Part shown: one piece after another, positions 1,384 through 44,600 of the stretch
Numbering within the stretch: position 1 is the stretch's first letter
Layout of the letters: the number at the start of each line of letters is the position of its first letter
Source: Sipunculus nudus
Lineage: Eukaryota; Annelida; Sipuncula; Golfingiida; Sipunculidae
Assembly: GCA_026874595.1 (NCBI GenBank)
Contig: CM049306.1
Span: 23,793,019 to 23,857,018, forward strand
DNA: 64,000 nucleotides
Direction of reading: 5' to 3'
The notes under the pieces: generated by a model
What the model was told of the DNA's origin: nothing
The model's database searches: none
Seen by the model: only the letters and a program-made list of their open reading frames with translations
Position numbers and translations under genes: made by a program

Positions 1384-1460
1384 ATGGAAAGGTTACGAAT
1401 TTCTTGGAGGATTATGATCTGCATATATCTGCTAACAGAATTCTGTCAAAATATATCCAG
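1384..1460 (+). CDS. Exon 1A: distal first coding exon, signal peptide
   Basis: The ATG at 1384 lies in an AAACATGG context, a good animal start. It encodes 25 codons plus two bases (AG) and stops at a CAG|GTATGT donor. The peptide has basic residues early (Arg at 3, 5 and 9), then a hydrophobic run around IMICIYLL, as a signal peptide has. The split codon AG|T or AG|C is Ser with either downstream acceptor. The NIS sequon spans the junction. The exon is too short to stand out as an open frame alone. The matching phase downstream is the main support. Confidence 0.65.
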
Positions 1461-2840
1461 GTATGTATCTTTCTTCATCATTCAATACAAGAGATGAATT
1501 TCACAGCAGTTATAAAGATTTATAAAATATATGATTGATAGATAACTTGCCATGATGTTCTAAGCCTGTCTACATGTATTCTGTGGCTTTCAATTGACTA
1601 ATAAAGAAATGTCGGCCAGCTTAATTCGGACACCTTCACTCATATGGTCATTGTTTGTGTGGAATTTGAAAATCGGCTCATAAGCAACAGAATTGACTAA
1701 GGGATTTTTGTTCCATCCTGGGGTCAGACATACCGCATGGCTTTAGTCAACCATTGTCTGACACACCGTCCTTGCCTGGCCACATGGCGCTCAGTGTCAT
1801 ACCCGCAGTGGTTGCCATATTGGAAACGTGGCCTCCCATCTCGCTGCTAATATATAGTGAATATAGAGATGTACACTTATATATATATATATACATGCCA
1901 TTCCTTCTGTTCGTCTTATATTTAAATACTAGCTGATAAACCCGGTATACCGGGCTTTTTACCGCGGTTTGGGAGATATATTTACTGAGATATTGAATGT
2001 TGGCTCATTTTTTTATTATAAAAGTTAAAAGAAAATATAGATTTTTAGTGGGATACTCTCGGAGTACGATATGTACAAATAATTTTTTACTGTTATTTTG
2101 TGGCGCTGTGCTCGTGACAAAAATCATATCCCGGTATGTTTACCTTAAAGACCTGGCCAGTGATGGTTTACATTGCGAACCGGAAAGTGTTTCGTTGATA
2201 TTTGACTGGTTTCTATCGTTTGACGTATAAAGAATAGGTTGATGTGAGGAACACATAAGATTAATTAAATGTACGTTGCAAGGAAACTGTTCCTGAAGAA
2301 GGAAACAGAAATATGCATACATCGTAAGTAGCAGAAGCGGACCCAGCGGGAATCCATGCAGTGGGTCCGTATCCCATTTTCAGACCCCCGACACCACCCT
2401 AGCCCTGTTCCTGAATTCGGGACCTTGAATTAGGTTTTGTCATTAATCCTCCTGGGTTGAACTCTCCATTTCATAAAGCGAGAAACATGTGGGTCATCCC
2501 TCATTGAAAGCAAGCGTTATTCATATGAACAATAGTCCTTAGTGTTAGAGGTTAAGTGACCACGATGCACGCATTCCGGTGATTGCCGATGGCAGTTCGG
2601 TTGTGCTCGGTAAAAAAACTGTAAAATCACTCAAAATTATATGTATATTATAAATTATTTATTTTCATATCGCCTATGTCACTGCGGGGATAATAACCTT
2701 TAAAATGATGAATGGCACAATATTGTACACAACGCGGTTTTAGAGAACACCGCGAACAAACGTGAACTGAATTCCTTTTATAAGTATTATATTAGATAAA
2801 GTCCATGGTCTTGTGTTATACTTGAAAATCACGTACATAC

Positions 2841-2882
<42 letters not shown>

Positions 2883-3817
2883 GCGGGGGTGGGGAGGAGG
2901 CTGGAAATGTACGAATGAATGGGGCACGTTACATTTACTGTTATGCAATAGAATAGGTACACTTTTAAAATATGCATGCCTGAGGATAGTTGCAACATAC
3001 TCCACCAGATGGCGGGGAAGGCCTGTTACAATCACAGGTGATAAAATGACTAAAAAGTAAAGTTTGTTTGCTTAATCAGATTCTGCAACACTAGGCAGCG
3101 TGAAATGTCTAAGGGAATGAATAAAGAAGTCAGTGTTTTTTTTGTTAACAAATAATTATAATTTATTCTTAAAGCAACCCTAACATTACAATACATTAAA
3201 TCAATATAATTACACAGTTTAATAAATAAAGTGTACAGTACCTGGATACCACCACTGTCACTGTGGTCCTAAAAAACGTATAATCCAGATGAACAGTTCA
3301 CATAAAACTCCTATGAGAATAATAGTCCAATTCAATCACAAAATCAATCTGTTGTAATCCAAAAGTAAAGTTCTTGTAATAATTCCGAAAGCAAACTGGA
3401 GACAGGCCGCACTAAATCTGCATAGAGTTCATAGAATCCCTGACACAACTGCAATTGGATAGGTCAAAACTGACTCACACTCTTCTGTGTCCGCTGAAAT
3501 ATTTCTCTTTCCCCTCGGCTCTTAAACACAGCCACTATAAATAACTTTTTATCCGAAAATTCTAGAAACTTCTATTTCACGAACAATCCCAAAGAATCCA
3601 TGCAACAATACAAAATACTCACGCCCAAAGAACATTAAATGACACGCGCTCATTGTGCGCGACCAGCCCAGAAAGGTTCATATTAGTATGAGCACTGTGT
3701 TTCTACACTCCGCCAGAGTTCAGCAGGTGCGGTTATTTATAGCAGCGCACAGGGTTTGCGCTTGACACGAAACTGAATGCCTACAGACACATGTACCACA
3801 ATTAAAGAGACACCTGT

Positions 3818-3861
<44 letters not shown>

Positions 3862-6800
3862 TTCTGATGCTGTTTATTTGCTGTGCTTAGTGGGACGTCT
3901 ACAGCCGGGCCGGATAGCACAAACACCACGTCTGCCAATACTACAACCAGTACCTCTCAAGCAAGTCAGTCAAGTGTGTCCACACTCGTCTCCAGAAACA
4001 CAGTATTAACCACCAACGTCATCCGTAACACAGGGACAGCTGACGTCACTAACCCCACAGGGACCACTGACACCGCCACCCAAGGTGTCACTTCAGGCGT
4101 GACGCCAAAACAGACAACCCAGTCATCACCATCAAGAAGGTACACGAAATGCATATATTACCAAAATAACATGATCACTGAAACTTGTTAACAGTGTTAC
4201 TAGCCTAGTAACACGAGTGTTTGGAATCGGTTTGTTTCATCATGTTCGATGACTTTAGCAAGCAACCGATTTATTATTATTAATCGATTTTCGGTTAACG
4301 CATCTGATCTAATTATTATCCTTTCAACGTTTAAAGGACCAATTCCTATGGTGCTGACACACGTTCTTGTACAAGCAACGAATGAATTAGGTCGGACAAA
4401 AATGTATTTTAAGAGTTCTAACCTGAAATGGATTAATAAATGTTTTAATGCTCACAAACTCCGCTCGAATAGACCTATGTATTTCAAATTACCATTTTCA
4501 GCTTAAATCCAAGGTGGCCGCCATTATAAGGGGTGAAATATTTAAATGGCAATCATTTTATAGCTAGGTGCCTTAGGAACACATTTGAGGTTTCGAAGTC
4601 CAATAGCAGGTACACACCAGTAAACGCAATCATAAGTCCTATAATGACTTGATAAATCATGTTGTCATGGTACTGAGAACTGTGATAATACTCGTCAGGA
4701 CTTGCTTGTGTCCAGCCTTCTTTACGTTTCTGACATGCAGGCTTAAGAGATTTTTCGTAAATACATTACTTCTCGCACGTTTTTACATAATCAGTAACGA
4801 TCGATTACATGAAAATACAACCAAATTGATCGATTATGCAGAGAAACCCGACCAATCATCGATATGATCGGTTAATCTGCAAAACACCATGAAATACCTT
4901 CCGCACACGTCACTGCATCGAACAGAGAAAAGAGTAAGACCACGCAGAGCGCATAATATGTGCCCTGTCTTTTGTACAATATACATTTCCTTATTTATTT
5001 GCCTTCTGTCGAAAACGGAATGCTCTTTTAGTCACCTTGTGCGCCTCTATCGTGTTAGATGAATATGCCCAGAGTCAGATGCAACTAAATAGGATCATGA
5101 ATAGTGAGTTCTGTCCAATTAAAGTACCCGCCCCGTTGCACTTTTGGGCATGTCGTAGTTCTTCAAACAAGAAGTTGAAGTGTCATAAACAACACGGTAT
5201 TACAATAAACAAAGTACAGTATAGGAAAAGAAGAAAACCCTAAAACTACTCAGGAAAAAATGTAAACTTAACATCTCTCTCTATCTATAAATATATAAAT
5301 ATTTATACTTACTGATATCATGCGAGAATTAAAAAGGGTTATCAAATTAGATCAGACGTTTCCTAGTAATTGTATTTTACTCCATGGCCCATTGTTATCT
5401 GAGACTAGAAAAAGGTGACCCGTTGGGTCCCGTTGCAGAAGAAGGGTATATTGCCAGATATGTGGCCAGACCCGTAAGGTAGCGAACTTCCCAGACCCGT
5501 AAGGTGACGACGTCTGGTGGTCGATACAGAACTAATCTATATACATCTTTGTGTAACTAGGCCAAGGTGAAGGATGTGACCTGAGATGTGATCATGCTGC
5601 CGGAAATTTAATTATGTGCAAGTCGAAGGGCCAAATTTGTGCGCATTCTGTAAGTTAGGGCATATGACTGACGCTGATAGCAAAACTGGCCATCCGTCAT
5701 GGCCCGTTTCTGCGAAAATTCATGGACAAAACAAACCAACATACAAACTGGGCAATTTTTGTAGTATAATGATAAGCAAGTCTTTGTTAATATAAGACAT
5801 GCATGACAAATCAACTTTTCACGTGCATTGGAGACACTTGTCATTAAAATTGATATGCCATATTTTCGGCTTCACCGCAAGGGATACACCCACTATGTTT
5901 TGCGATAGTCCTATGTTATCTCATTTTGACATTTGAGTTATCAACGGTTATTTGTCATCTGTTGAATTAAGATTCATGGAGGGACTGCGTACCAGAAGCC
6001 AATTCGATGTTTTTATTTTTATTAGCTCAGCTGCCCATAGATCATCTGAGCTATAGTGATCGTCCTTTGTCCGTCGTCCATTAACAAGGCACAAATTGCA
6101 ATCGCTTGGCCTAGATACTTCCTACTAAATATCTACGTAGGTCCTAGGTAAATCTACTAGAGTACCAAACATTAGGTCACTATTCTGCCAGTTGCGCGCT
6201 TTGTGTGTGTTTTTACACTTAGAAAATCAGACTTATTACAGTGTTCTGGTGTACAAAATAAAAATTTTGTTGTCAACCTGAAAAGAAACATTGTTTCTTC
6301 TGTATATATAACATTGTTCACATGTAAAAATGAAGAAAATCGGCCCCGGAAGTTCTTCAGAGGTTTTTCGCACACAATTGTAAAATTTTACATTTTGGCC
6401 GGTTGATGTATGAAATCCATACTATAGATAAAATATCTCAAAGATGATTGCTGGATCTTTCTGAAATTTAGTAAGCTATTTAATTATGGATGACCCTCTC
6501 AGCGGGGACTGGTTGCATAATCTACATTTTTTTTTATTTTTGCGCATTTTCCAGACTAAGAAATAAGGGTTGAAATGTAATATATTGTAATATAATGTAT
6601 TACGTTTGAAAGAACGTGCATCATTTACATATGTCTCTATCACCATGGGAAATTTGAAGAAATTTTTTTTAATGAGTTATTTACGGCTGCTGCGGAAACA
6701 ATTGCAAAATACAGATGTAGCATCTGATTTGTACCTAAACTGCATTTTTAATGAGATTTTCCAGTAATGGTTGCTTGGTATGTATTGAAATTTGGTAAGA

Positions 6801-9800
6801 TTGATCATAATATCCAAGGCCCATCATCTGTGCTTTCCTCTTTCATCTGGTGGCGCCATCTATATTTTCTCAGTTTTTGTGCATTTACTTCGAGTAACGC
6901 GCATTTTTGTGAGTTTTTAACACAAAGATCATGTTAGTATTATGTGATGCAAAACCAAAAGGTTGCACTCAGCATTAAAAATTTTAAGAAAATCCATTCT
7001 ATAAATTCATCACAACTACCACAGACACAATTACAAAAATACAAAAATGAGTGTCATATGAGTGTCAAAGATCAGCTGAGCATCATGACCCCTGGGTCAC
7101 TTGTTTCTATTACCAGTATAAATTATATGAGGTGTGTCATGCACTTCCTGGTTATCGGAAATTGGTCTTCGTTTGTTGACTTTTGAAGAATGGTTGTTTT
7201 TGTACTGATCTTGTCTTGAATGTTTGAATAGGTCATCAGCAGTTTTCGAATCTCAGCCTAGGCGGTGAGATATTTTACGATCGGCCCCACCCAGGGTGCA
7301 GGCTTAATGGGAAGGCCGAGCCATACGGCCGTGTTTCAATCAAAGAGGAATGCGCTTTGAGGGTTCCTCGGTGGTATGACCTAGCAATGGGAACTATTAC
7401 ACACCCAGGGCCCGCAGGTGCAGAAGTCACTGGGCCTGATTGACACCAGGATTTTAAATGAGAGAAAGCGTGTGATACTGGCCTGTCACGTAGTCGGAAA
7501 CCGGAATAGGATTCTGCAGATGTACATGCATATACTTAGATTTAAGCTAGCATTACAAAATGGAGGCGGTTACCTCTATCAATAAAAAATCTTGAAAAAT
7601 TATAATCCAGTTTATATGGATATTCAAACACGATAACACGACCATGAGCATACAGTATATTTTACCACACATACATGGTTGAGTTTCACTGTATGACATA
7701 CAAATACATACATGCATTAACAGCAATTAAATTTTTACTGTGAATCATTTTGAATAATCATGAAAAATAATGAGTTTAAAAAATAAGGTAAAAAATACGA
7801 ATATCTTTTCAAAAAGAGGGCACCAAATGTTTTTTTTTTATATAAAATAAAATTAAGAAAAAAAAATGAAGTCAGCGATATATTCGCCCCTCGATGACGG
7901 GTTAATCAACATACAGATCGCCTCAGAAACTTATAGCTTGTCTTCAGAGGGACGTTATTACCACTCACGACGCGCCCGTTATCTGAGCTGTCCGCACTTT
8001 GTCCGCGTCGCCTTCCATGTGCCATATTTCTCTCTATCTGTTGATAAGGAGCCTGACTGGGTCACTATTGTTTAATTTATAACAGATTTATGTCCCAGCG
8101 ACTTCAGACCGCGCACACCTGCTTTGGCATATTAAGGTTCGGTCAGGAATAGTCAAATATGGCCAAGTTATTTCTGTTTTGTTTGTTGTTTGCTGTTGTG
8201 ATAAGTTTAGCCAGGTGAGTGGAATTGTTATTTTATTGTTTCTTCAGTGATGACGTTGAAAGCAGAGAACTCTGGTGTTCGAAAATTTCTCTGGACATTA
8301 TGCGCTTTATGCGTGGAAGTTGGCATTTGAGTTTAGATTTAACTAAGGATAATATCCTTTTTTTATATTAAAATTAAATGTCAATTTAGGTTCAATCGGC
8401 AATCACTCCTTCCACTGCAGAACCCTGAACGCTAAACTACAAGTCTTAAATAATACTCCAGCTTACCAAAGAAGGCACGTTTATAAATGAATACAATATA
8501 TGTATATGTACCATGGCCAGTAAAATATGTAGTGGCACGAACCATCGAATTGTTTCCTTTAGAAGGGCATATATGAAGCTGAAATGGGATACATTCACAT
8601 GCATATTCATGTGTATATTGTATATACGGTGCATGTGAAGCTTTCAGTATAGATAACATGGCCACCTGAAGCAAATACATCTGTAACTAATGTTTTTACG
8701 CTTATGTTTAGAAAGAGAACAGGGATACTATAAATTCATCTACATTACATAAACAGACTGCCGAAACTTTGCTGCAGATGGAAAATAATATGACATATAA
8801 CATATATTGAGCGCAGTTATAAGTATAGATAATATTCTCGGGGATGCATCGGGGTAAGTTTACCTTTATATCATTATTATTTTTTTTCCCGCGCGGACTG
8901 TTACAAGCACAATGGAAGCCTGTGTTAACAAATGCTTTTTCCGCTCACTTATGGACGCCTGGGGAATATAACAATATATGGCCTTTCTCCCACACAGAAA
9001 ACTCACATATATTGCGACATAATAACAAATGTCTGGATTACGGCATAGGTTAAAGATGTTACAGTAGATAAGTGAAGCATACGGAATGTTCTGCCCCAGT
9101 AGTTCACCTCAATATGTAGTCAATATCCTCCAATCATTTATGGAAACGGGTTGCAGCATCCTGATATACTTTAATATTTCATATATACGATGTTACAAAT
9201 CACAATCCGTATCAGATGTACGTTTATTTCGGCATTTGGGTATGCACTAAAACAATTATGATATAAAACTCGATAATAATTTTATAAGATATGTGGTGTG
9301 GAATATGCTATGATAAAATATGTAAAATAAATTATAATATAAAGCAACATACAGAAGAACCTCGAATATCCGAATTTATTCGGATAACTGAGGTTACGGA
9401 TATGAGAGGTCAGACATTTTTCAGAAGTGTACTGTAAGTACATTGGCTAAATAATTTTCCATGTTTCATGTATATGTTAATACGTTATCTCATCAGACCA
9501 TTTTAAATCATCATTAATCCTTTTTTCTTTCTAAAGCAGAGAAACATTTAATTGTGATAAATTTTGGTTCCTAACTCTAAATTTTGGAAAAAATAATTTT
9601 AGGAAAAAAGAGATACGAAAATTTGAGGCAGTACTGTAATTACATATATTAATTTTTAGTATTATATATACTACACTGTACTACACTAAACTCTACTCTT
9701 CTATACTATACTATATTATACTATACTATACTATACTGTACTGTACTGTACTATATTATACTATAAATAGTATTATGATAAAATATAAAGTAATTATAAT

Positions 9801-12800
9801 ACAATATAAAATAAGAATTACAATAAAATAATTCATTTTTTTATTGCTTTATACAGTGTTTTTTTCTCTTATATTTGTTACAAAGAGCTGTTACAACTAT
9901 TGAATGAAACGTCCCCGCGCTCGATTACGCTCTGGCAGCGTGACTCGCTCCCTTGCTCTGGGTCAGGACCTTATCTTATCATCAGATCGTCCAAAGATCA
10001 AAGGAAGAATGGAAAATTTTATGTTAAATGATATTTATGTGATTAATATTGATTGTGTTAGAAACACCATGTAGTAGTCACTTATTAAGTATATAATGCC
10101 CGAGAATGATGATGATCGAACAAAAGTGGGATAACCTTTTTATAATATCAGAGATAAGGTGATAATTCTTTTTTAAATGTGTATTTATTAATTTACCCTA
10201 AATTATAAGAAACAGAATATGATGCTTTATTTAAATGTTTTTCACTTTTAGTGATCTACCTGCTCGTCACTATATTGCTTCAGAGTGAAGTTTCATTTTT
10301 ACCGGCATGCTTCAAAATGTAACATATCAAACATAACAAAAGACCGGCTTAGATATCCGACACAACAGACTAAACTGATTATCTGCAAACCCAAAAGATG
10401 TATATACATATACGGTCTATGTGTCACCAGCCTGCAAATAACAATATATAAATATGAAATAAATACCAAACAGTTTATAATTAGATGTGATATGTATGTA
10501 TCCCCTGTGTGCGATCTCCAATAATAATCAGTGCCAGTAGCTTTGGCACAAATCCGTTTTTAACACGATTTAACCAATTCTACATGACATAATTTATATG
10601 TAAAATTGATGCCTCCTCGGCGAAGGATTGCTGTCTTGTTTTTTTTTTTATTTATATAACTACTGTGCAAACTTTTAAGACAATAAACTTATGAGAGGCT
10701 TTGTCATTATCGTTAACATACTATCGACCCGGCAGTCAAACTGGTGAGACCAGAATTTGGTGCCGCATTCCTATTTATGTAGAATATAAAAGAAAAAAAA
10801 ACCCATTAAATCCAATGTCTTCAGATAAACAAAAAACATTAACTAACGTTTTACACATATTACAGAATACTTCATATTTAATCAGGATATATGATATCTC
10901 CTAGTTGGGTGTTCGGATAGTATTGACTTTACTGTACATGTGTGTGGAATACAGATACATAGCAGGGCGAAAGCACAAGTTTTTTTTTGGCATCACCCAG
11001 GTCCCGTATACCGCACCTGTAGGTACTGGGCGTGTAATCATCATCATTGCTTGGTTATAATACTATGGAACCACCGAAAGGCGCACTCGTATGTGAATGA
11101 GGCATGGGCGTGGGGCACATCCTTCCCCTTTAGCCTGCAGAGCACTCAACCCGGACCCCGGCCGACCGTGTGACATGTTATCGCTCACCGGCCGTGATTC
11201 CCAATCTTCTGCTCTGTCCATTTACCTCAGGAGCCGTTAAAAATTTATATATTTAATTCGTACCACCTGCACTCAGAGGTGTTTCTATGGTTGAATATTT
11301 ATGATACATCCTCCTCTGTGACAGATGGATTGAGGTCTAAGTTACAATGACTATTTATTTACAAGTGGATACCTGCTGTTTAACGGAATTGTTTTACAGG
11401 TGTGAGTTATTGTAGTGATAACCCAGGGTTATCACTACACCGCCCGTCACGGAGTGCTTTGTCTTGCCGGTCATGTCAAGTAGTGTGTCTAATCATTTAT
11501 AATTACGCTGGTGACCTGCAATACCATGATTCAATGTGACGACGACGCATGTAACGCTGGTGGTAACAGCTACAGCAGGATGCCACCCGGGATGGAAAAT
11601 TAAACCCACTAAATACAAATTTATTTGATAACAGTATAGCAACATTATATATCCAATAGTCATGATAATTCCTCAGCTCTATAATTATACCTGTTTTCCC
11701 TTGGTTCGTTGATTGGTTGGTTTGCCTGTAAGCAACTGTACACTTAAAGTTTTAGGGATTTTGATGCAATTGTGTGGAGGGTTGTGGTAACATCCAAAGA
11801 TAATCCATTAATTTTTTAGGTGAGCTGGGTCACCATGATATATTTTCCATTCAAAGGATAATATACAATTGTGACAGAGGAAGAAGCCTTCCCATTCATA
11901 GGTATTAGGGACAGCATTTGTTCGGAAACTGGGTATGTGAACCCGATCCTGAAGGGTTTCTAGGTGGTGGTGCGACTTCACACATCTAATAACACCGCCC
12001 CCCCCCCCCCCAACACACACACACACACACGAATGCGCGCTCTCTCTCCCTCCCCTCTTTCTCTCTCCTTTGTAGCAACTATGAAAAAAAAATGACTAAA
12101 GTAATTTGATGATACAATAAGTTGTTTTCAAAGGATTCTACACCAATGTTATATAGTGCAATTTCTTTGTCTCGGCCGTAAGTCGTTCGTCAGTTTGATG
12201 TTGGTTTGATGTTGGGGGTTTTATCATCGATATCAGGGGCTGGCTCACCTTTGAACCCGTGTTAGCAAACTGTAACACTGAGTATCGCCCATGAAAGTAT
12301 TATTAGGTAAACATGCAGGCACAGGCACAAACCCTGTTAGTCATGACAAATAAAATAGAAGTCTATAAATAAGAGTGCATTTCCGTTAAGAGAGGTCATA
12401 TGAAAATTACAAAGATTATCTTGCACAGTTCTCTCCCAAGATATGCTGATCAAGGGAACGTAATTAACATAATAAAATTGCACTATAGACATGGTTTAGT
12501 TTAACATTTTTTTTACAATATGAGAATAAATTTTTTTTTTAATTTCAACAAAAAAAAAATTCAAGAAATTACAACAAATTAACAAGCATGACAAGTTTGA
12601 TCTTTCATCCTCTTATTTTATATCTGACCTTTGTCCTTATTTTAAACACATTCTGCATGATACGTTGAATATTTCAGCGCAACGAACTCAACTCCGAGAC
12701 CTACCGGGCCTTCCGGTCTAGAGAGAACTGACATCATCATCATTGCGGTCACGTGTGCTCTGATGGGTGGCGTGTTGATAGGAGCAGTGGCGTTCGCCTG

Positions 12801-15800
12801 TAAAAAGAAACACCAGTAAGTCATTATATTTAAATATTTATGAACTTTTAGATAATAAATATTCCACATATTTGTTTTACAGTCAATATTTTGTCGCTTG
12901 TTAAATAAGGTTCCACAGACGTCAGCACCTGTCGTACCTTAAATATTTTCCATTGAAAAAAATATTATCTTGCATAAACAGCTGAATTAAACTCAGCTTT
13001 TCGATTTAGAGACGCAATTTTCTCCCCCCCCCCCCCCAAAAAAAAAAAAACACACACACACATTTTCATATATCTTAATTGTTTACAGGACTTGGGCCAG
13101 ATACCTCTACCTGTACCTTCATTAGGGTCATTTCAGTGTACCTGTTCCTCTCATGAGTAGTACAGGAGACTGGAGTATCAGATCCTGGTGTGTTGTACTC
13201 TATGTACAAGTATGAAGCTAGAAATCCTATGTTGAATTGCTTAAAGATAAAATGAATGCAATTATCATAAGGTCAAACTTTAAGTATCTGTATCTGTACT
13301 TTCTTCAGCACTGCGACCTTTACCTTACGCAATACGTGTAAATGTACTTGTATCTAACCGCCTCACAAATACCTGTACGTGTATCAAGGTACCCTCGCTA
13401 GAACCTGGCCCAAATCCTGTTACGCTCTCTACACAGCGCTTTCCCTATAGGCCTACTACCTATATCGTAAGCGCTGTTTGTTTTGACCTCGTATCCTGAA
13501 TCGCTACACCAGAGGGGAGCACTGTATTTTGGTCCAATCAGATGAGACCCTGTGCAGGAAGAAAAACGGTTTACCAGCCAAGCGAGGAATACAGGGGGCC
13601 AATGTTGTTCATTTCGTTTTGAGTGACTCCTAATCGCCACGGCAACCGTTTGAACAGGCCATAGGCTCAGAGAGAATGGCCCTATATACACGTGGTTTCT
13701 GGGCGGAGTCTGATGCCTGTCGAGTGTTGGTTGACTGGCATTTGGTTGGCTGCTAGTCACATCAGCAGTTTTGTCAGCAGACAGGCCCACCACCTGGTGT
13801 TTAAGTGCATCATAAACGGTCAAAGCAGGCAGCGGGAAAATCAGTAGGTTCTTTAGAAGCGCAAGATTTCCGCTGCCTCGGGAGCGTAAAATCCTGTTTG
13901 TGTACACAGAAAATGAAAAAAAATATGTGCATTATTGACGGACAGACAAACAGAAGGAAAAATAGGCATGTGGGATAATTTAAAGTTATCCTCAAAATCA
14001 TTATCCGTTAATCATGTATCCGTTTAGATTTCAAGAGACGTTATTTTACGAAGCGCATTAATATCCGGAAACTTGAAAGTCAGAGAGCTGAGATTAAAAT
14101 ATTTATGCATAAGTATTGTGTTATAATCAGCTATCACGTGTCGCCCGGTATATCAACTGCAATTTTATTGTACGACAAATCATAAATGGTAGGAATAAAT
14201 ACAATTTAAACAAACTCTGCTGAAATTTGGGTTAATTGAGTTACCTAAAGGGTAAACATTTTATATTAAAGCTAATTTTCCTGGTTTGCCTTTTTTTTTA
14301 AACGGTGAAATTTAAATAAATGTCATTTTATCCGTCTGTGATTGGTTGATGGTTTCATTTATCGTTCCAACACGTGATAGCACAGAAATTAATTTTAAAA
14401 TCATTAATTGATATCGCTGGCTGGGATTTCAGTGGAATTAAATTCAGTGGTATCAATTATGAAAATTAATTGACAAATAAGCCAGGTAACATCAATTTTC
14501 AGTTATAAATCACGGATTCAAATAAGTTTCAGTGGCTGCTTCAATCCACATAATCAGCAAATGAATCAACAACTAATGTGCTTATTAATTAGAAATTGGC
14601 GAATCGATGATGCCTGTCTTCTATTTGAAAAAAAAGTGTTTGAAGAGTTAACATAGGTGGGTTTTACCGACGATTCTTATATTTTATATTGTGGTTGTTC
14701 TACGAAGGGAGAACGGAATTCAAACAACCTAACCAGTGATGCCACTGGGTTTCATGAAGGTTGCATAATATGTTTTAATGACAAAAAAGAAATGATCAAA
14801 TGTCTAAAAGTAAGAAAAATTATATATAACAAATAGTCCAGCTTTACGTAACAAGCTTCATTAGGGCCGGACAGGGGTGTGAAACAAGCCCTGGTACTTT
14901 ACGTAAAAGCGACCCAGATTTGATACGCTCTTTCGTCAATATTTATTTCATACCATCGGCCCACAGGCATCAAGATATTATACACCTTTCTGCAAGAAGT
15001 CTTTTCTATGCGAACCGAATATCTTCCGTTTGGCCACTGTGGGACAGCCGGGCTGCTTGTCTCAAATGTCAAACTTTAAAATAAAAATTTGTTACATTTC
15101 ACGGAAACTCCTGTTTACATTCCACATGCGCATGCACGCTTACAAAATATTACCTATTCCGTAAAACCCTTACCATAAAAACACCCATGTTTGACTTGAA
15201 ACAATTATAATCAAACACCCTTCAACGGACTACGTTGTCCTCTTCACTACATTTCTACGTACGCCGCTGGTGTATTTAAAAGCGTTGTGAGGGTCAGATT
15301 TTGACCCCTAGCAATCCCTAAACAGCAAAGTCGTATTCTTGCGAGTCCGAGTCTGCGCAGTGTGGATAATAATTATTATATTGTTTTTTTTTATTTTAAA
15401 CTTTCCGGTAACCCATTGGGCCAGTCATCCCCTGAGCTCCAGATATGGTATCTGAAGTTAGTAGCGAATGGCACAATTACTCAATATTTTACACTTGTGT
15501 GACACATCGGCAGAGTATATCTGTCTCTCACCAGTTCTGAAATATGAGGGCACAATGTAAAATCACCTGTCAAAATGACGTAAATTTTAAACTGTGAAAA
15601 CGTGAGTGTGATTATGTAAAAAAATAGTATAAAAAAAATATGACACCTTAAAAAATGATAATATTCTTTGTAACAGTGCTTTAAACATATTTATACATAT
15701 ATAGCCCATCTTTATAAGGTTTGGATTTTATAATGTTAAAAGTAAATCCTCTGATTTTTTTTTCAGGAATAACAAGGAAAGAACTGAGATTTACAACGAA

Positions 15801-15923
15801 TACCTGAGTAGAGACCAGATGCACGGTATACCGCGTACTGCTAGTGGTACATTGTACGATAAGTACGCATCAACCGCCACCAAGGGTGAGGAAAACGCCG
15901 GCTATGTGTCAGAAAGACTTTAA
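1384..15923 (+). CDS. Single-pass type I membrane protein with mucin-like stalk, 4-exon form (206 aa)
   Basis: Joined exons 1384-1460, 3891-4139, 12678-12815 and 15767-15923 give 621 nt, that is 206 codons plus TAA. Every junction has GT/AG borders and falls in phase 2, so the exons join without a frame break. The order is: signal peptide (about residues 1-22), a Ser/Thr-rich stalk (about 26-126) with N-glycosylation sequons NIS, NTT twice and NST, a hydrophobic helix at about 128-149 bounded by Asp and by Lys-Lys-Lys, and a cytoplasmic tail at 150-206. The tail holds Tyr164, 167, 185, 188 and 201 in YNEY, YDKY and YVSE contexts and ends in SERL. I do not recognise the family. A heavily O-glycosylated surface protein with phosphorylatable tail tyrosines is an inference. 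Exon 2 (249 nt, multiple of 3) could be skipped, leaving a 123-aa product. Confidence 0.75.
2333..2480 (+). repeat. Dispersed GGATCC-type repeat, copy 1
   Basis: It shares the order GCGGACCCAG, a C-rich 'CAGACCCCC' stretch, then 'TCCTCCTGGGTTGAACTC' and a 'TTTC-TAAA' end with the blocks at 21340-21500 and 59605-59752. This looks like a short non-autonomous element; the other copies show GGATCCA-like inverted ends. The boundaries are approximate. Confidence 0.5.
2844..2897. repeat. (AG)n microsatellite followed by G-rich run
   Basis: About 14 AG dinucleotides run straight into a block of G interrupted by C and T. Simple-sequence DNA. Confidence 0.95.
3083..3818 (-). mobile_element. LTR-like element (solo-LTR candidate), uninterrupted copy
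   Basis: Read on the minus strand it starts TGTTACAGG and ends GTGTTGCA, the TG...CA ends of an LTR. On that strand it carries TATAAATA boxes (near 3532-3545 and 3731-3742 in window coordinates) and AATAAA-type signals toward the far end (near 3120 and 3160). A second copy, split by another element, lies at 51552-54975. No adjacent internal domain or clear target duplication is visible, so a solo LTR or a fragment is likely. An exact class (for example Ty3/gypsy) cannot be shown without the internal region. Confidence 0.6.
3822..3858. repeat. (TA)n microsatellite before exon 2
   Basis: About 18 TA units abut the end of the LTR-like element and lie 32 bases upstream of the exon 2 acceptor. 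The tract may vary in length between individuals. Confidence 0.95.
3891..4139 (+). CDS. Exon 2: Ser/Thr-rich mucin-like stalk, symmetric phase 2-2
   Basis: The acceptor is TGTGCTTAG at 3882-3890 and the donor is AAG|GTACAC at 4140. The exon is 249 nt (83 codons' worth) with phase 2 at both ends, so inclusion or skipping keeps the frame. It encodes a peptide dominated by Thr, Ser, Gly, Asn and Val, with two NTT sequons and no Cys, typical of an O-glycosylated stalk. The base composition is clearly richer in C and G than the flanking AT repeats. An LTR-like element and an AT microsatellite lie directly upstream in the intron, ending about 32 bases before the exon. Confidence 0.72.
4140..6021 (+). 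other. Intron 2, first section, no gene seen
   Basis: AT-rich non-coding sequence. A short direct repeat of CCAGACCCGTAAGGT occurs twice near 5468 and 5492. The open frames at 4249-4506 and 5037-5243 show no domain, no splice consistency and AT-driven composition. Confidence 0.45.
6022..7106 (-). mobile_element. HINE-like (Helentron-type) element, degraded copy 1
   Basis: On the minus strand it runs from AACAAGTGACCC (window 7106) to CAGCTGAGCTAA (window 6022). The subterminal inverted repeats GCTCAGCTG and CAGCTGAGC are both intact. The inner sequence contains TGGCGCCA-type units shared with the copies at 22601 and 51706, but no clean tandem array. The 3' hairpin is partly decayed. Helentron-associated elements are known for subterminal inverted repeats, a 3' hairpin and internal repeats; the assignment is by structure only. 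Confidence 0.55.
7219..7545 (+). mobile_element. tRNA-derived SINE, 5'-truncated copy
   Basis: It starts inside the tRNA-like head (TTTTCGAATCTCAGCC, a B-box match) and continues through the family body (ACCCAGGG, GGTTCCTCGGTGGTATGACC, GGGCCCGCAGGTGC) to the 3' end GAAACCGGAATAGGATTCTG. The same body is found at 10945, 31920, 32560, 34235 and 41325. The A box is missing here. Confidence 0.7.
7880..8158 (+). promoter_or_regulatory. Candidate internal promoter and 5' UTR upstream of exon 1B
   Basis: After a very AT-rich stretch, the sequence becomes CpG-bearing just before exon 1B (CACGACGCGCCCG near 7967, GTCCGCGTCGCC near 8001). GATA-type sites occur at 7979-7984 (reverse) and 8043-8048. This composition step and the signal-peptide exon that follows suggest an alternative promoter. 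No TATA box is evident. A 69-codon open frame from 7866 overlaps the block but has no coding signature. Confidence 0.3.
8159..8214 (+). CDS. Exon 1B: internal alternative first exon, signal peptide
   Basis: The ATG at 8159 begins MAKLFLFCLLFAVVISLA, followed by AG and a strong CAG|GTGAGT donor at 8215. This is a near-ideal signal peptide: one Lys, a long hydrophobic core, and a small-residue end suited to cleavage after Ala. The exon is 56 nt (18 codons plus two bases), phase 2, the same as exon 1A. Splicing to the acceptor at 12677 gives AG|C (Ser) and runs in frame through the membrane helix and tail. The product is 116 residues with only about 18 extracellular residues after cleavage. It lies inside the large intron of the longer form, so it probably has its own promoter. 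No transcript evidence is available here. Confidence 0.65.
8215..10944 (+). other. Intron section between exon 1B and the next SINE, mostly AT-rich
   Basis: Non-coding. It includes a 20-bp imperfect palindrome (TATCCGAA...TTCGGATA near 9367) and the pentanucleotide array at 9660-9770. No further signal-peptide-like exon ending in phase 2 was found by eye. Confidence 0.45.
9660..9770. repeat. (ACTAT)n/(ACTGT)n pentanucleotide array
   Basis: About 20 degenerate copies of ACTAT, with runs of ACTGT and ACTAC variants. The sub-runs of identical variants suggest slippage. Confidence 0.85.
10945..11205 (-). mobile_element. tRNA-derived SINE, partial copy
   Basis: The minus strand matches the SINE body, including the reverse of CCGCACCTGTAGG, GGTTATAATACTATGGAACC and TTTAGCCTGCAGAGC. 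The tRNA-like head is largely lost beyond 11205. Confidence 0.6.
11411..11439. repeat. Perfect 14-bp inverted repeat with 1-base centre
   Basis: TGTAGTGATAACCC, then A, then GGGTTATCACTACA. It lies in intron 2, outside any repeat family I can identify. Confidence 0.9.
11998..12062. repeat. C run, (CA)n and CT-rich simple sequence
   Basis: A run of C, then about nine CA units, then TC-rich sequence. Simple-sequence DNA in intron 2. Confidence 0.9.
12678..12815 (+). CDS. Exon 3: juxtamembrane segment and transmembrane helix
   Basis: The acceptor is AATATTTCAG ending at 12677 and the donor is CACCA|GTAAGTC. The exon is 138 nt, phase 2-2. It encodes a short Pro/Thr/Ser-rich segment with an NST sequon, then LERTD, then about 22 hydrophobic residues (IIIIAVTC, ALMGGVLIG, AVAFAC) and a KKKH stop-transfer motif. 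GG and GxxxA spacing within the helix could support helix packing, as in other single-pass receptors; this is inference. Both signal-peptide exons can splice to it in frame. Confidence 0.8.
12816..13411 (+). other. Intron 3, first section
   Basis: Non-coding, with a C/A/CA simple tract at 13024-13062. A region near 13090-13390 has several GTAC-containing words (CCTGTACC, TGTACTTG, CTGTACG) at irregular spacing, probably a degraded satellite. Confidence 0.4.
13421..13888. mobile_element. MITE with 9-bp target-site duplication, shorter copy
   Basis: The element starts TACGCTC and ends GAGCGTA. It is flanked by AAATCCTGT at 13412-13420 and 13889-13897, a perfect 9-bp direct repeat. The longer copy at 28052-28750 has the same ends but a different 9-bp duplication, which fixes the boundaries. 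Nine-base duplications are typical of Mutator-like elements. It lacks about 230 bp present in the other copy. An open frame of 169 codons on the minus strand covers nearly all of this element and is therefore not a host gene. Confidence 0.8.
13898..15766 (+). other. Intron 3, second section
   Basis: AT-rich non-coding sequence. The part at 14385-14620 has many TTAATT/ATTAAT words and could bind homeodomain factors. Nothing else is evident until the pyrimidine tract before exon 4. Confidence 0.4.
15767..15923 (+). CDS. Exon 4: cytoplasmic tail and stop codon
   Basis: The acceptor follows a long pyrimidine tract (T-rich, ending TTTCAG at 15766). The frame continues from CA|G (Gln) for 51 codons to TAA at 15921-15923. 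The tail is hydrophilic and charged, with five Tyr. Two are spaced as YNEY (residues 164-167) and two as YDKY (185-188), and one lies in GYVSERL near the end. None fits a strict ITIM or ITAM consensus. The last residues E-R-L resemble a class III PDZ ligand, which is weak evidence alone. Confidence 0.8.
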
Positions 15924-16090
15924 ATGATATGGGACATTCAATTTACCAGCAATATCCTATCTTGTGTTGTTCTGAAAACGCAGCACCTTGCTCTACCAGC
16001 AACACGTGTAATCTCAAATTTGTGGCATTGAAATCCGATTTTACATAGCGGAACCATGCATCTTAACTTAAATAAAACTTTTATTGCCTG
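15924..16090 (+). other. 3' untranslated region with polyadenylation signal
   Basis: The stop codon at 15921-15923 is followed by non-coding sequence with a canonical AATAAA at 16071-16076. Cleavage would be expected 10-30 bases beyond it. A second AATAAA occurs near 16333 and could serve a longer transcript. Confidence 0.55.
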
Positions 16091-16538
16091 TAATTTTCTA
16101 CATCACGTTGCTCTCAGAGACACTGTAATGCTCATCTGCCGCAAGACCGAGTAGATATGCACTTAATACTAGTATGGTATAGATAGGCACGTAGCCTTGT
16201 GGGTTTTCTGTTGGATTTCGGAGCTAAAAAAATTCCTCAAAGGAAAGATGGCGAAATCTCGATAGGACTTCAGAGACTTGTATCATAAGTCTTAGCTTTA
16301 TGTATGCGTTCTGAATTATTCCTTATCCTGTGAATAAATCGCCCGAAATCTTATAACATTCTGTCTATTCAACCTAATTAAACAGAGAGTGTCAACTCTA
16401 AAGGCCATGGGCATATTTATTTGTGAAAATAGAGACACAATGAAAAAGATCATTCTTTGATACATAACATATATACAAAGTTAAATTTCGAATATACAAC
16501 GAATTGGTTTGTGATAAACAGAATTGTGCTAAATGTAG

Positions 16539-16539
<1 letters not shown>

Positions 16540-16589
<50 letters not shown>
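16540..16589. repeat. (AT)n microsatellite
   Basis: About 25 uninterrupted AT units. Confidence 0.95.
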
Positions 16590-16591
<2 letters not shown>

Positions 16592-17274
16592 ATAATTGTT
16601 AAATTTCACATACATTATTGGATAGATTATTTGAATCGAATGAGTTCAGTGACTCAGTTTTGTTTATGCAACTGTTTGGCAAATATTTACTTGTTCATAA
16701 TACCATATCAGGATATGTGCCCATATCTAGGCGAGCCAACATGTCCTGAGTGACCTAGATAATGTTAACGTTACAGCGGTCAAAGGTGGCGTCCATATCA
16801 GACCGGATGCGTGTGGTGTAGCTATTTCGCATGCGCACTTGTGACGGGGTCACAGGTTCTGCAGTAGACTTGAGCACATGTCTGATGTGACCTCCCCTGC
16901 CCGCGTTGTATTGTGTACATATAAGATAAAAGTCACATTCGTCTTTATGGGTACTTGTCAGCTCCGACTCTGACGGGTGTATGGTTATATATCCATATCT
17001 ACCCTGACCTCATTATGGGTTTATGGTCTGGATATTTCTACAACATGTAATACGAATTTTACTATCTTAAAATATTGGGAAATTCAAATATGTTTGTGTG
17101 CGGATATATATACATATATTTTTCAACCTTACGAAGCCATGCAGTATTACAGGCTTCACAAATTAGGGATATTTGTTTACCATATATGTATTTAATTTAC
17201 TCATATATGATTTATGATGTACTGTATTTGTGTAAATATTAAATAATATATATTCATTTGGCAATTTTTTATTT

Positions 17275-17545
17275 AACGCTGTTAATGGCAAAAAGGAGTG
17301 TTTCTTAGGCATTTTTGCAGGGCTAGGCGTTTTTTAGGGTTTCGATAAAAAATCATAATATCAGGGGACACATTACCAGGGGATAGATAATAACAGAATT
17401 GCTCGGCTAAACAGGTAAAACAATCTTACGATGGTAAATTGATCAAAATTTCATTATTTTATTTTCTTGAAAGAGCGGTTGAAGCTCGAAATCGGTGGGG
17501 AGGGTTGGCGGTGGCACTTCAAAATTGGTTCTTGAAAACCCAACT
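17275..17545 (+). repeat. Diverged dispersed repeat, copy 1
   Basis: It shares the order ACAGAATT, ACAGGTAAAACAA and AAATTTCATTATTTTAT, followed by a G-rich TGGGGAGGGTTGG stretch, with 38400-38660. The similarity is moderate and the limits are uncertain. Confidence 0.35.
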
Positions 17546-18595
17546 CTTTTTGGCCTATATATTTATATTTATATCTGCAAGTTTACTAAAATATACCACA
17601 ATGTTTCAATCGTATCCACCAACTGACAGTGACTATAATTATTACGTACTCCAATTGCCAAATTACACCTTTCTCCCTTCCTTCAAGAAACAAACATCAT
17701 ATTGCAAGGCACAATGTACTTGAACAGATAATGGATATAAAATAACAGTACAGTGTTTTTTTAACTGATAAAATTTTATAACTTTATAAGGCTGAATATT
17801 ATCGTTGATGCCTTCGATATATTATCACATTGAAAATGTCAATGTTGATAATCAAAGCGAGACGCCAATGAAACTTTGGTGGGACTATTCATGAGCGCCG
17901 TCTGGTGGTCATGACTTTACATACAACCGATCATGTGGGTCGTTTACTTAATATTTAATCCGACATGGCGCTCTATCTGTTGCATCGTGCTCAATAAAAT
18001 GAAGTATGTCTAGAATCCAAGTCACCATTATTACAGATTGATCAGCTAATTAAGTCATATGGATCAGTTCCAAGGCCCGGCACGTGGGTCCCTTAGCATT
18101 TTATCCATGTGTCCTTTGCTTATTCCGTCTAAAGCGGGGTGTACATACATTGCTATGTTCACGATACGTCGGCGTTTCGTCTGCGATACGGTGAACATGT
18201 ATACGTATTAGAATATGTACTTAGCGTAATGCAGACTGACCGCAGATAGAAATGTGGGGATTGCCGACTCGCGTTCAAACGTACATTCAGCGAAATATCC
18301 TTTACACCTAACGTTACACGTGCGTTACGTATGGGTTACGTATCACAGATTTAGCGTTACATGTAACCCCCTGTTTTACCACAATCCCGTCCTTTTCGTG
18401 TTTTATTTCTTCACTTTGTTCCGTCCTGATCCAGCTGCGGTCCCAGCCCTTTTGTTTTTCATTCCTTCTACACTTTATCTGTATTCCCTTTTTACAAGCA
18501 CCTGAACCATTTCGTCCTATCATTTTTGTTATTCTTCTATTATTCCTTAAGTCCCGCCATCTTGCTTCTTCCAATGTTTATCGGGGTGATTTTAC

Positions 18596-18617
18596 AGAGA
18601 GAGAGAGAGAGAGAGAG

Positions 18618-18680
<63 letters not shown>

Positions 18681-18682
18681 GC
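18596..18682. repeat. (GA)n microsatellite
   Basis: About 40 GA units with one AAAA interruption and one GACA interruption. Confidence 0.95.
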
Positions 18683-19464
18683 GCTGAATTTGTCAGCTAA
18701 AACGAAACATGGTGTAATTTACTTTTGAATGTGCGATAGCATTATGACAGGCTTAATTGTTAGTAAGTGGAAGGTATATAATTTAAATATCCTGCCTTGT
18801 TCAGACCGATCGTCTCTTATCAGGTAGTTTTCAGGGCACACCCAAAACGAGCCACATCCATCACTCACCGGCTTAACCTGTCCACTTAAGTGCTTTGTCC
18901 GGCTGTTTAGAGGTCCACGTCACACTGTCTCTCCCTGTCCGATATGAATGGTGTCGTTACTGGCTGCAGGCTGTATTAACAGAGCTTTCTTACGGCGTCG
19001 CTAGACCAAGAAGCTACAGAACACGGGATTGTTCAAGACTAGGATATCGTCTAAATGTATAAATTTCCTCCATAAGGGATTTAAAGGTAAAACGTCAATC
19101 AATATTGATTCAATTCAATGTGACACACAGTTATAACTTCTTCCCACTATGGATATATTTTTCTACGCTCATCAAAGAATACTTCGTGGGTAAAAATAAA
19201 ACAAAAACAAAAAATAAGAATATTGCCAGACTATTCCTTCATTCTAACCACAAGGGCTTTTTTTCGGGAGAAATGTTTATATCGATCAGGGATTCTTTAT
19301 CGATAATTATAGGGCCGAGTATTGAAAGAAATATTAATATTGATTATCGGCACAAGATTATTGATAAGTTATCGTCGTGTTACAGACAATAGTCTGTAAA
19401 ACACATTTTAACTAGAAACCTGCATTCTTAGGAATATTGTGTGGATTCTGTGCTTGCATTCACT

Positions 19465-19680
19465 TGTACGGCATATATTCCAAAGTTCATTCATACAAAA
19501 GTGACTGTACATTTGTGAATATTACTTAATGACGACGATCCTGTATCCGGTTAAATCTGGATCCACACCAAAATCTAGTCAATACTTCATTTGCCCATTT
19601 AAGTAATGCCCCGAAAATTCATGAGACTCCGTTCACGCATACACACAAACACAAAAAATACTGGGATAAACGCATACCAT
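19465..19680. repeat. Dispersed ~220-bp repeat, copy 1
   Basis: It shares GTGACTGTACATTTGTGAAT, ATGACG, TGGATC, TTCATGAGA.TCCGTTC and GGGATAAACGCATAC with 20725-20945 in the same order and orientation. The family is not recognised. Confidence 0.6.
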
Positions 19681-20724
19681 CCAGGCGGAGGCGATAACCG
19701 TGATTAAAACATAATAGAACATTTATTACCACATTGTCCTGAGGAAGCCAACAAAAAGAGCTAAATAACACTTTATAATACCGATTTAGAATAAGCTCAG
19801 AGTAGGTTCGTTTTCCTGTACTAGTCTAGGACGACTGAATAATTTTAAACATGGCTCCTTTCTAGGGTCATCGATAATCGCATCACTTCTCAGAGCCGTC
19901 GAAAGTCGATCGGTTCTGTTCCATATCACGCCAGTCCTATTTACTGAAATATTTAGTAATTGGGTCAACTGCATTAATGCATTAGGTGTTTGGCAGGGAA
20001 GTCTTACCGTTTTTCTCAACCTCCTTCTCACCCCATGGTGTATTTGGAGTTCAACGTGCTGCTCTCTTTTAAGGCGCCGGGCCTAAATTGCTTTTGGGGT
20101 GATATTTCAAAGCTGTAACCATTAGCTGATGATAACGTAGCTCCTTTGTGAACCATAAGCATGACCCCGATTTTATTTCTGTCCTTGACCACCTGATGTC
20201 GAAAGGACAGAGTATTTGTGGGAAAACAATTATATGATGAGTTGCTTATGTATTATGAGAGTTATTAACTATGCTACAGTGTACGAGAATTTGTGTGATT
20301 TTTACAAAACAAATCAAATTAAAAGTCAAACGAATGGCACGTTTAGAACTCTGCAGTTATCATCAATAAGTAATATACTGGTCTATAAAAGAATCATAGG
20401 GACAATACATGTAATAACATTATGTACATACATACGTTATGTGAAACTGACAAAACAACATTCGATAAATGTATAAGTAGGTCTTAAGACTGTTTAAATT
20501 AGATTTAAACTAATAATACTGTTATTGCTTTATCAATACTTAATTTCTTCGGTTTCTCAGGAACTACAATCTTTTGATAATTTAGTTGATTTTTAATGTT
20601 CATGTTTGTGTTCTGACAATATTAGGTCTGAACTAATGTATAATTATATGCATTTACTGACGCACACGCACATTGTAGGTCCCTATGGTGGGCACCCCAA
20701 CCAATGTTTCCTTTCACTGATTCG
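19681..20724. other. Intergenic, no gene seen
   Basis: AT-rich. The minus-strand open frame at 19786-20031 and the plus-strand frame at 20216-20476 have no recognisable domains or splice context. Confidence 0.4.
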
Positions 20725-34234: not shown

Positions 34235-34589
34235 ATGTACATCTGCAGAGTTTCCTTTCGGTTTGGAACTACATGACAGGGCGGTAGCACTCGCTTCCTA
34301 TCATTTATTTTTTATATCCTGGTGTCAACTAGGCCCGGTGTCTACCGCACCTGCGGGTCCTGGATGTGTAATAATCTCCATTGCTGGGTCATAACACCGA
34401 GGAACCCCCCAAAGACGCACTCATATGTGAGTGATACACGGCTGTAGGGCACAGCCTTCCCATTAAGCCTGCAGAGCGCTCACCCTGGGTGGGGGCCGAC
34501 CGTGAAAAACCTCACCGCCTCGGCTGAGATTCGAACCCACGATCTCCCGGCTTTGAGTTCTGCGCTCTACCCCTGAGCCACAGAAGCCA
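34235..34589 (-). mobile_element. tRNA-derived SINE, near full-length copy
   Basis: On the minus strand the head has an A box TGGCTCAGGGGTAGAGCGC (34562-34580) and a B box GGTTCGAATCTC (34526-34537) at tRNA spacing. The shared body follows and ends near CTGCAGATGTACATAC. This is an RNA polymerase III promoter-type SINE. The tRNA of origin cannot be named with confidence. Confidence 0.85.
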
Positions 34590-41324: not shown

Positions 41325-41669
41325 TTTATTTACATCTGCAGAATTCCATTCCCGTTTCGGACTCCGTGACAGAGCAGTATCACACGATTACTCTCATTAA
41401 ATATCCTGGTGTTTACCAAGCCCGGTGACTACTGCACCTGCGGGCCCTGGGTGTGTAATCACCCCCATTGATTGGTCATACTATCAAGGTACCCCCGAAA
41501 GGCGGATTCGTTTGTGAGTGAAACACGGCCGTTGGGCCTCCCCATTTAGCCTGCAGAGCGCTCGCCCTGGGTGGGGCCGACCGTAAAAAATCTCAACGCC
41601 TCGGCTGAAATTCGAACTCACCATCTCCCGGCTTTGAGTCCTGTGCTCTATCACTGAGCCACACAAGCC
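41325..41669 (-). mobile_element. tRNA-derived SINE, near full-length copy
   Basis: The A box TGGCTCAGTGATAGAGCAC lies at 41643-41661 on the minus strand, with a B box-like AGTTCGAATTTC. The body and 3' end (GAATTCTGCAGATGTAAAT) match the 34235 copy. The 116-codon minus-strand frame overlapping it is not a gene. Confidence 0.82.
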
Positions 41670-44600
41670 GTTTTGTGAAAATATCTGTTGGTTGAAATGT
41701 TTCCGTGAAAACAGTTTAAGAATAATTTTAAAACTTTTCCCTTTGTTTTTACAATGATTCTTATCAGAGTCATTCATAATCGTGTCGAATCTTTTCACAA
41801 CAACCAATAATCGCATAAGTCTTGTCGTAGCCATAGGTAATCATATTGGTTAACTTGCGTTGCTTGCTGTACCAGTATATAAATACCGCAACCCCTAGTC
41901 TAATTATCTGGAACTAAATCAGCCCTGCGACTCAAGCTGTGTAATAAGCGTATCAACGTCAGGCGTTTTATCGTTATATCTGAAGTGAGGTTAACAGAAC
42001 AGTGCACACATTTAAAAAAAAAACATAGAACTAGACTGAAGTCAGAGACTGCATACATACCTGCGCCAGAGTCCTGATCCAACTGTGCGTCACGGTTCAT
42101 CTAAGGTTGCATCACAGGTCAGCTCTAACCGCTGGGTCAAAGGCGGTTCCAAACATTGTTAATGGCGCTCACCCTCAGCCGGGATAAACAACTGCTTTCT
42201 CTTGCAATGGCAGTTAATTTTTAACCTAAAATATATTACGGTTATCAAAATCATCCCCGAAAGTTAATGGACTGTTTTAATCATCCACGAAAAACATCAG
42301 AACCCGTTCATATTTCTTTACCGAAGTTGCTGACAGGAGCACAAATCAACCTGACAATCAGTCATACAAACACGTAACCAACCAGCCAACAGAAAAATTA
42401 TACTTCGAGGATGAGGTATATTTACGGAAACTACCGACGAATTAGTCTATAGCATGGATCAAGTGCGAATTTAACGATTTAGTTTAATTCAACTACACGC
42501 CTTATTCATATGGCTAACTAGACTTGACATCTACGACAACACCCTGGGTGGTATTGAATTTGCTACAAGCGAGTGTCGCCCAAATTTCCTACCGAGAGGG
42601 AATTTAATCAGTGAGAAAGGACGGAGAAACCTTCATATAATCATGTACTTGTCATTATTCTCAGGTGGTTTGATAAGACACACGATTTTCTATCTCTGGG
42701 CACGCTTAGCTACCTCGCGATTTTTTTTATATAAATGGCCTGCAAACTAAATACTAAATGCATGTTTGACTGTTATATAGGTCGTGGTCGTTTTCTATTG
42801 TAGCTATACGTATGGACCTGGCAAAACACGTTTAGATGTAAACATTGCTACAACAACCTTAACCACAATTTAAATTCAATGTGTGTCATTATTGAAAACT
42901 CTTTCCGTGCGGAAAACAAGACAAAGTGATAAATTAATTGTTTTACATTTGGTACGTATTCCGAGTTAAATCTAAGCCATAGACATACAGGGCAGTTACA
43001 AAACACTTAAATAGACCACTGACATAAATTTATTAGGGGTAAACCTTTTGGCATATACCGAGGGAACTCCATATTAGGGACTTTATTATAGCTAGCACGA
43101 GCCAACAGGATAAATTTAACATATCCGAACCAGACACTTATCCAAATATAGAATTGCAAGATAAATAAAAGCCATTTGTGTCCTGTCCGAGCCATCTATT
43201 TTTTCTACAGCCTGGCGAGTGAAAATAAATGCAGGGAGTTCTCTGGAAACATCCTGGTCAGTTAGGTGACATGCTGATTGGTCGGTTTCTGGGTCAGTTG
43301 TGTGTGAGTGAAGATCCGAGGTGTTTAACCCGAGCCAGACAAGTGTAAGCAAGTAAACTGTTTCCTGGGGCTGGATGGCCAGGGAGCCTGGGAAATGACA
43401 TGTGTTTATGTGACAGCTAACTGGTGTTCAATAACGTCTACAAGAGGTGATCTGCCTTCCGCTTTCATTACACAAATGTCGACGGCACCGACAGGGCAGA
43501 AAATTTACATGTCTTGCTCACGCAAAGAACCAGCCAAAGCCGAGAGCTGCCACTTGAGACGGACTCGATAAAAACAAGTGTTGATGTTGTTTCGTTATTT
43601 AGTTGGGCGCTGATGTCCCACGCACCTTCTGTCGTCTGCTGAGCACCTGCGATCGCTTCAGTTCGTACAGGTAACAAAAACGGCACATCATACGGAATAC
43701 AGGCGCGGACAGACTTGGTGTTTGGAGGGGTTATCGATCAAAATACTAAAACACACTTTTTACTATACTCTGTTTTGTAAATGCTAGAAGCATACCCCAG
43801 CCTAATACCTATGAAATATGTTGCTTGTTCAAGGGTCCAACACCATTACGTGCCAATGCTACATTTGCATAGTTGTCATTTAAAGTAATAGTTATGGTAC
43901 CATTATCTCATGAGATAATTACTTGGTATGTATTGATGGTATCTACTGACTTGGTATCTACAATAAAAAGTGGAAAAAATGGTTGATTGAAGAATGGATA
44001 CTGGCACCTTCATTTTGTAAATATAAACATTTTTTATAAAACCTTTTACAAAATAAGTTACCCATTTTTAAAAGTTAAATTTTGTTCAAAGAGATGTCAG
44101 GGTTATTACTGCTCAGTCTGATACTGTGAAGCTGCCTTCCAGTTGAGTCCCAATTAAAAATCCGGGAAATGTCCCTGGAATACCACACCCGTTCAGCAGA
44201 CAATCATTTGGAAACACAGCATTAACCACTCGTATTTTAATACAGCTCAGCACAGGGTGGGTTATGGGGAGTATACTGTATATTTATCATAAAATCGAAG
44301 TCGTTACTGCCGCTCAGGGACCCGTCTTTGTAATTAATATACTATATATTTTCTTCCGCAGTGTTGGAGAGATATGAAAGGAAGGAATTTCACCTGAAGA
44401 AACATAGTGGTTGTTCTTACAGACTCATCTGTGTCGTTATTCACCGGGTAATCAGTGTTATCAACCATTACTGAGAAACCGCAATCGTTATTGTCCGCGG
44501 AGATCAAATTAAGTACCAGGGAAAAATTAATTTATGGAATCAAATAAAAAAACACATAAAAATATCGTATATTTTCGTTGGCTCACCATGGCATCTGGTT

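Follow-up and report, generated by a model that had tools for sequence, protein, structure and literature searches.

Introduction

The long and short forms of the neurexins share their helix and tail, and the hallmark of the family is an LNS/EGF ectodomain (PMC3084293). Ron/Stk carries a kinase domain, and in its short form an internal promoter gives rise to a protein with almost no ectodomain and an unchanged intracellular part. For NRXN1, a published account (PMC12665717) describes independent promoters that yield long and short membrane proteins, the shortest of which, gamma, has a third promoter to itself; in C. elegans the short gamma form of nrx-1 is credited in a second paper (PMC11304965) with a behavioural role of its own. 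Two further papers describe the yeast signalling mucin HKR1, where an internal promoter produces a truncated form that still confers killer-toxin resistance (PMC11581313), and BAI1/ADGRB1, where an intronic alternative promoter (intron 17) comes with alternative exons (PMC11711277). Here we present a candidate gene from Sipunculus nudus, located in a stretch of 64,000 nucleotides (nt) of contig C1 (CM049306.1, assembly GCA_026874595.1; C1:23793019-23857018) that we refer to as the window, for which two promoters would produce the same membrane protein with or without a mucin-like stalk. The window lies within a 1.43-Gb genome of 153 contigs, five of which span 81-111 Mb each, pointing to chromosome scale.

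Compared with these systems, the gene would at most work like the neurexins, HKR1 and BAI1, and we compare it with them as a kind and not as a homology family. With the neurexins it would share the two-promoter scheme for a long and a short form; however, no LNS or EGF domain was found by Pfam in the models of either form, and the part of the ectodomain lost in the short form would here be a mucin-like stalk. For lack of an LNS/EGF match, we have not filed the gene in the neurexin family, nor, on a comparison that went as far as Pfam, in those of HKR1 and BAI1. HKR1 is intronless and its promoter exonic, whereas the gene described here would have a separate first exon with its own signal peptide. 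BAI1 is a G-protein-coupled receptor while our model is single-pass, and in contrast to Ron/Stk with its kinase domain, there is no Pfam match above cut-off in the models.

Results

The gene models are built from five exons, all on the + strand. Exon 1A (1384-1460; MERLRISWRIMICIYLLTEFCQNIS; 77 nt) and exon 1B (8159-8214; MAKLFLFCLLFAVVISLA; 56 nt) both end in phase 2, at CAG/gtatgt and CAG/gtgagt, respectively. Between them lies the stalk exon (3891-4139), 249 nt of phase 2-2 that are rich in Ser/Thr codons and contain two N-x-T sequons. The transmembrane (TM) exon (12678-12815; 138 nt, also phase 2-2) encodes a short juxtamembrane stretch with the sequon NST, a helix and then KKK, and the tail exon (15767-15923) the cytoplasmic tail, which has the C-terminal sequence ENAGYVSERL and is closed by a TAA stop at 15921-15923. 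An earlier note on this DNA had proposed this architecture, and we found all five exons at the predicted positions: upon splicing in silico, the GT/AG borders, the phase-2 ends of the first exons and the 2-2 phases of the stalk and TM exons all hold. The predicted products of 206 amino acids (aa; 1A, stalk, TM and tail) and 116 aa (1B, TM and tail) are open as expected, and so is a 123-aa model that joins 1A directly to TM and tail. In these spliced sequences the two first exons join the shared downstream exons in one frame. About 150 nt 3′ of the stop, an AATAAA (16071-16076, + strand) may serve as polyadenylation signal and fits the tail as last exon, the hexamer being common in the AT-rich DNA found here.

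An in-frame stop codon lies 9 nt upstream of both ATGs (TAA at 1375 for 1A, TAG at 8150 for 1B), with no AG acceptor between stop and ATG in either case. Exons 1A and 1B can therefore only be start exons in their frame, which upholds the proposal that they are alternative first exons. Because the TAG at 8150 is followed by no acceptor before the ATG, 1B cannot serve as a cassette read in frame from 1A.

To gauge the exons against chance, donors, acceptors and hydropathy were scored with generic splice matrices and a hydropathy scale, and both strands of the window were scanned alongside a background of 200 kb (20 stretches, two of them the upstream neighbours of the window). The donor of 1B scores 13.24, a value equalled or beaten by 0.014% of the window GTs on both strands, and its hydropathy of 3.38 is the highest among the 32 first-exon candidates listed in the window. 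With a donor of at least 10 and a hydropathy of at least 3.0, 1B alone is retained in the window and nothing in the background. In neither scan did a stronger first-exon candidate than 1B turn up. Exon 1A stands out from chance only moderately: its donor is matched by 0.46% of window GTs, and cut-offs of at least 9.8 and 2.6 retain three candidates in the window (1A, 1B and one other), one in the background, and two ATG/donor pairs sharing a single donor in a fresh 80 kb. At cut-offs of at least 8 and 2.5, the window contains six candidates and the background seven. Further downstream, the acceptor of the tail exon is excellent (13.6, with 0.015% of AG sites as good) and the TM donor is equalled by 2.2% of window GTs.

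Each first exon is preceded by core-promoter-like sequence, as judged by motifs. Candidate core promoter A (1284-1318, + strand) consists of the TATA-like octamer TATATTAA (1284-1291) and the initiator TTACACC with A+1 at 1314, at a spacing of 30 nt, and candidate core promoter B (8078-8110, + strand) of TATAACAG (8078-8085) and the initiator TCAGACC with A+1 at 8106, spaced by 28 nt. The predicted 5′ untranslated regions of 70 nt (A) and 53 nt (B) are free of ATGs. The test behind these assignments called for a TATA-like octamer compared with TATAWAAR together with an initiator YYANWYY; a scan for sigma-70 promoters was set aside as not applicable to animals. In 264 kb that include the window, 1.5% of the 11,345 ATGs pass the motif test, and in the fresh 80 kb 37 of 3,152 (~1.2%) do so. 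Dinucleotide shuffling of the 190 nt 5′ of the ATG recreated the motif pair in 9 of 3000 cases for 1A and in 8 of 3000 for 1B. Among the 112 ATG/donor pairs in 264 kb that would make a hydrophobic first exon, two carry the motif pair, namely 1A and 1B, compared with none of 15 in the fresh 80 kb. Over the 300 bp that precede the ATG, the CpG observed/expected ratio reaches 1.19 for 1A and 1.18 for 1B against a window mean of 0.79; over the 300 bp that begin with it, the values fall to 0.48 and 0.68. The 18 CpG upstream of the 1B ATG exceed 98% of the 300-bp bins of the window. The possibility that promoter B is a copy of promoter A was rejected: a comparison of 300 bp upstream plus the exon for each gave four shared same-strand eight-mers, where the null mean is 5.5, as well as one opposite-strand nine-mer, and alignment of the two stretches revealed no convincing homology by eye.

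These data bear on the alternative that only the upstream promoter is real, with the 206-aa protein as its product and possibly a 123-aa form in which the stalk is skipped, 1B being a fortuitous open frame that happens to have a good donor. Exon 1B is predicted from sequence and sits inside a large intron, and at loose cut-offs every 100 kb of strand contains 16-20 candidates that resemble a first exon. However, 1B leads in both scores, in the window as well as in the background, and has a TATA/initiator pair as well as a CpG-rich upstream region, so that we regard this alternative as rather improbable.

The encoded protein was examined by hydropathy and by eye. The peptide of 1B, with a charged start, an uninterrupted hydrophobic core and small residues ahead of the junction, makes a strong case for a textbook-like signal peptide, while that of 1A has a shorter core and is a fair candidate; the earlier description of both first exons as signal-like is thus well borne out for 1B but only passably for 1A. 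From residue 26 to the helix, the long-form ectodomain would comprise 102 residues, 47 of which are Ser or Thr (18 S, 29 T); Pro and Asn account for seven each, and Cys is absent. Sequons are found at positions 23, 37, 42 and 112 of the 206-aa model, the first within exon 1A. KKK follows directly after the helix and the tail has about 56 residues in all. Transmembrane mucin-like glycoproteins are defined by a signal peptide, a Ser/Thr-rich ectodomain, a single helix and a basic juxtamembrane tail, and the long model displays each of these features. The stalk frame is open across its 249 nt, strongly biased towards Ser/Thr and not a simple repeat, and the stalk would probably be O-glycosylated. 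In a scan for internal exons rich in Ser/Thr/Pro/Asn it reached 0.60, compared with at most 0.43 for the other window candidates among those listed (8 on the − strand and 10 on the + strand, the latter including seven versions of the stalk). The only 82-residue stretches in 264 kb to have a Ser/Thr content comparable with its own were two ACT-repeat arrays, both outside the window.

Searches for relatives gave little. No Pfam domain scored above cut-off in the 206-aa or 116-aa model, the TMEM132 and AJAP1/PANP C-terminal domains attaining 14 and 13.2 bits, respectively, where 27 were required. Searches of the own genome, in which only the best candidates are scored, returned one significant match each for the TM and the tail exon and one each for the stalk and the 77-base 1A exon, so no second copy of the TM, tail or stalk exon was found in the 1.43 Gb. 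A potential paralog on contig C8 (E 3.1) reads as chance by eye, and two Ser/Thr-rich frames that lie upstream of the window, at ~4 and ~12 kb, were dismissed as relatives since they are the ACT-repeat arrays. A scan of viral contigs with the TM and tail protein gave 30 pattern matches and no relative, and seven matches among solved structures (best E 0.046) led nowhere. Rfam and tRNA matches in the window amount to zero.

Several repeats were noted along the way. Read by eye and not by ARAGORN, the upstream ACT-repeat arrays are part of a stretch of several hundred bases present in near-identical copies on the minus strand (L002 and L003), which also holds a tRNA-like sequence in reverse orientation. 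Two groups of similar hypothetical peptides, one ILGPV.TIC.LLTD-like and the other a GGEIFY.RPHPG-like frame, occur more than once in the window and are by eye probably parts of dispersed repeats; their sites are 24031, 24361 and 54254 (+); 7257-7417 (+), 34493-34582 (−) and 41484-41840 (−). The intron between 1B and TM contains an inverted repeat at 11411-11439 whose 14-nt arms pair perfectly around a 1-nt loop (TGTAGTGATAACCC / GGGTTATCACTACA).

Discussion

The best explanation of these data, to which we give somewhat better than even odds, would be one gene with two promoters that produces a stalked and a bare membrane protein with the same helix and tail. According to this model, a single gene encodes a small type I membrane protein. 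Transcription from the upstream promoter, starting near 1314, would join 1A, stalk, TM and tail into a 206-aa protein whose Ser/Thr-rich stalk is probably O-glycosylated. Transcription from the intronic promoter, starting near 8106, would join 1B, TM and tail into a 116-aa protein that has the better signal peptide and the helix and tail of the long form; with the cleavage site placed by eye, its ectodomain would be reduced to about 19 residues. We infer from the sequence that both forms would be transcribed, spliced, glycosylated and delivered to the surface.

A number of observations count against this model. It is read from DNA sequence and not from RNA, and no relative on which conservation could be tested was found in the own genome or among the viral contigs. 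Each TATA box agrees with TATAWAAR at seven of eight positions, and the promoter criteria were fixed after both sites had been seen. At the background rate, chance would account for about 1.7 motif-bearing pairs among the 112, and for both reasons the weight of the motif test rests on which two pairs pass and not on their number. The CpG signal of 1A is weak (14 CpG upstream, more than in 91% of bins), and the CpG-richest bin of the window (25 CpG, at 18101) has no known start.

The splice sites are a second concern. Those of the stalk exon are weak (acceptor 5.3, matched by 9.6% of AGs; donor 4.1, matched by 9.7% of GTs) and so is the TM acceptor (3.6, matched by 18.7% of AG sites). The weak stalk acceptor and donor, together with 1A being the weaker signal peptide, would suit a scenario where 1B-TM-tail is the main or only working gene and 1A and the stalk derive from a decayed or differently spliced upstream unit. 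However, the stalk frame is open and strongly biased, 1A possesses a TATA/initiator pair and a good donor, and the stalk-TM junction is in frame; to this scenario we accord very little probability.

A scan of 1461-20000 for stop-free exons that begin at a phase-2 acceptor was passed by 25 candidates, which we ranked by a simple score. The stalk came fifth and TM seventh. A helix-free candidate of phase 2-2 at 9857-9961 (105 nt; acceptor 10.0, donor 5.0) came fourth, above both, and could be inserted without a frame change between TM and either 1B or the stalk, so that 1B may not splice directly to TM. The tail exon contains a strong donor-like site at 15886 (score 10.3, phase 1), so that the exact C-terminus is uncertain and another isoform could have its last dozen residues replaced. 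The two-promoter reading of the earlier note is partly supported: it agrees with the frames of the exons and with the core-promoter-like TATA/initiator motifs before each first exon but is complicated by the candidate at 9857-9961 and the donor at 15886.

In this context, 1B might instead begin a different gene, nested in the intron, whose further exons have gone unrecognised. Exon 1B reads as a complete first exon without needing the TM exon, and the interval from 8215 to 12678 offers other candidates with a phase-2 acceptor, of which 10284-10506 and 9857-9961 score best. Against this, a helix-like stretch is present in four of the 25 candidates and, of these, TM is the only one of phase 2-2, also when the interval is taken as 8215-15767. 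A stricter scan of the downstream + strand (acceptor and donor at least 5, GC at least 0.43) gave 24 candidates, none of which was convincing as a known coding exon when judged by eye and not by family searches, such scans being able to miss short or terminal exons. A nested gene appears distinctly improbable to us.

If the gene has two promoters, as we favour, its most likely role would be that promoter choice sets the amounts of stalked and bare protein with the same tail in each cell. This choice may be regulated, as implied by the "toggle" of the earlier note. The short form could possibly compete for the partners of the tail, or it may stand in for the long form; competition is no better supported than an independent role of the short form, like that described for the gamma form of neurexin in C. 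elegans (PMC11304965). A more far-reaching view would see a surface gene for which neither a recognised domain nor a close paralog in its genome was found, with two unrelated promoters that each have their own signal-peptide exon, in which a mucin-type gene independently reached a scheme like that of gamma-neurexin and the bare form is either a regulated competitor or a constitutive version; as a whole, this appears unlikely.

The principle itself is left unchanged by the gene, as the neurexins, HKR1 and BAI1 already show it. If both promoters are used, promoter choice alone would decide whether this surface protein of Sipunculus nudus bears a stalk, and five short exons with one shared tail would allow the effect of the stalk to be separated from that of the tail.

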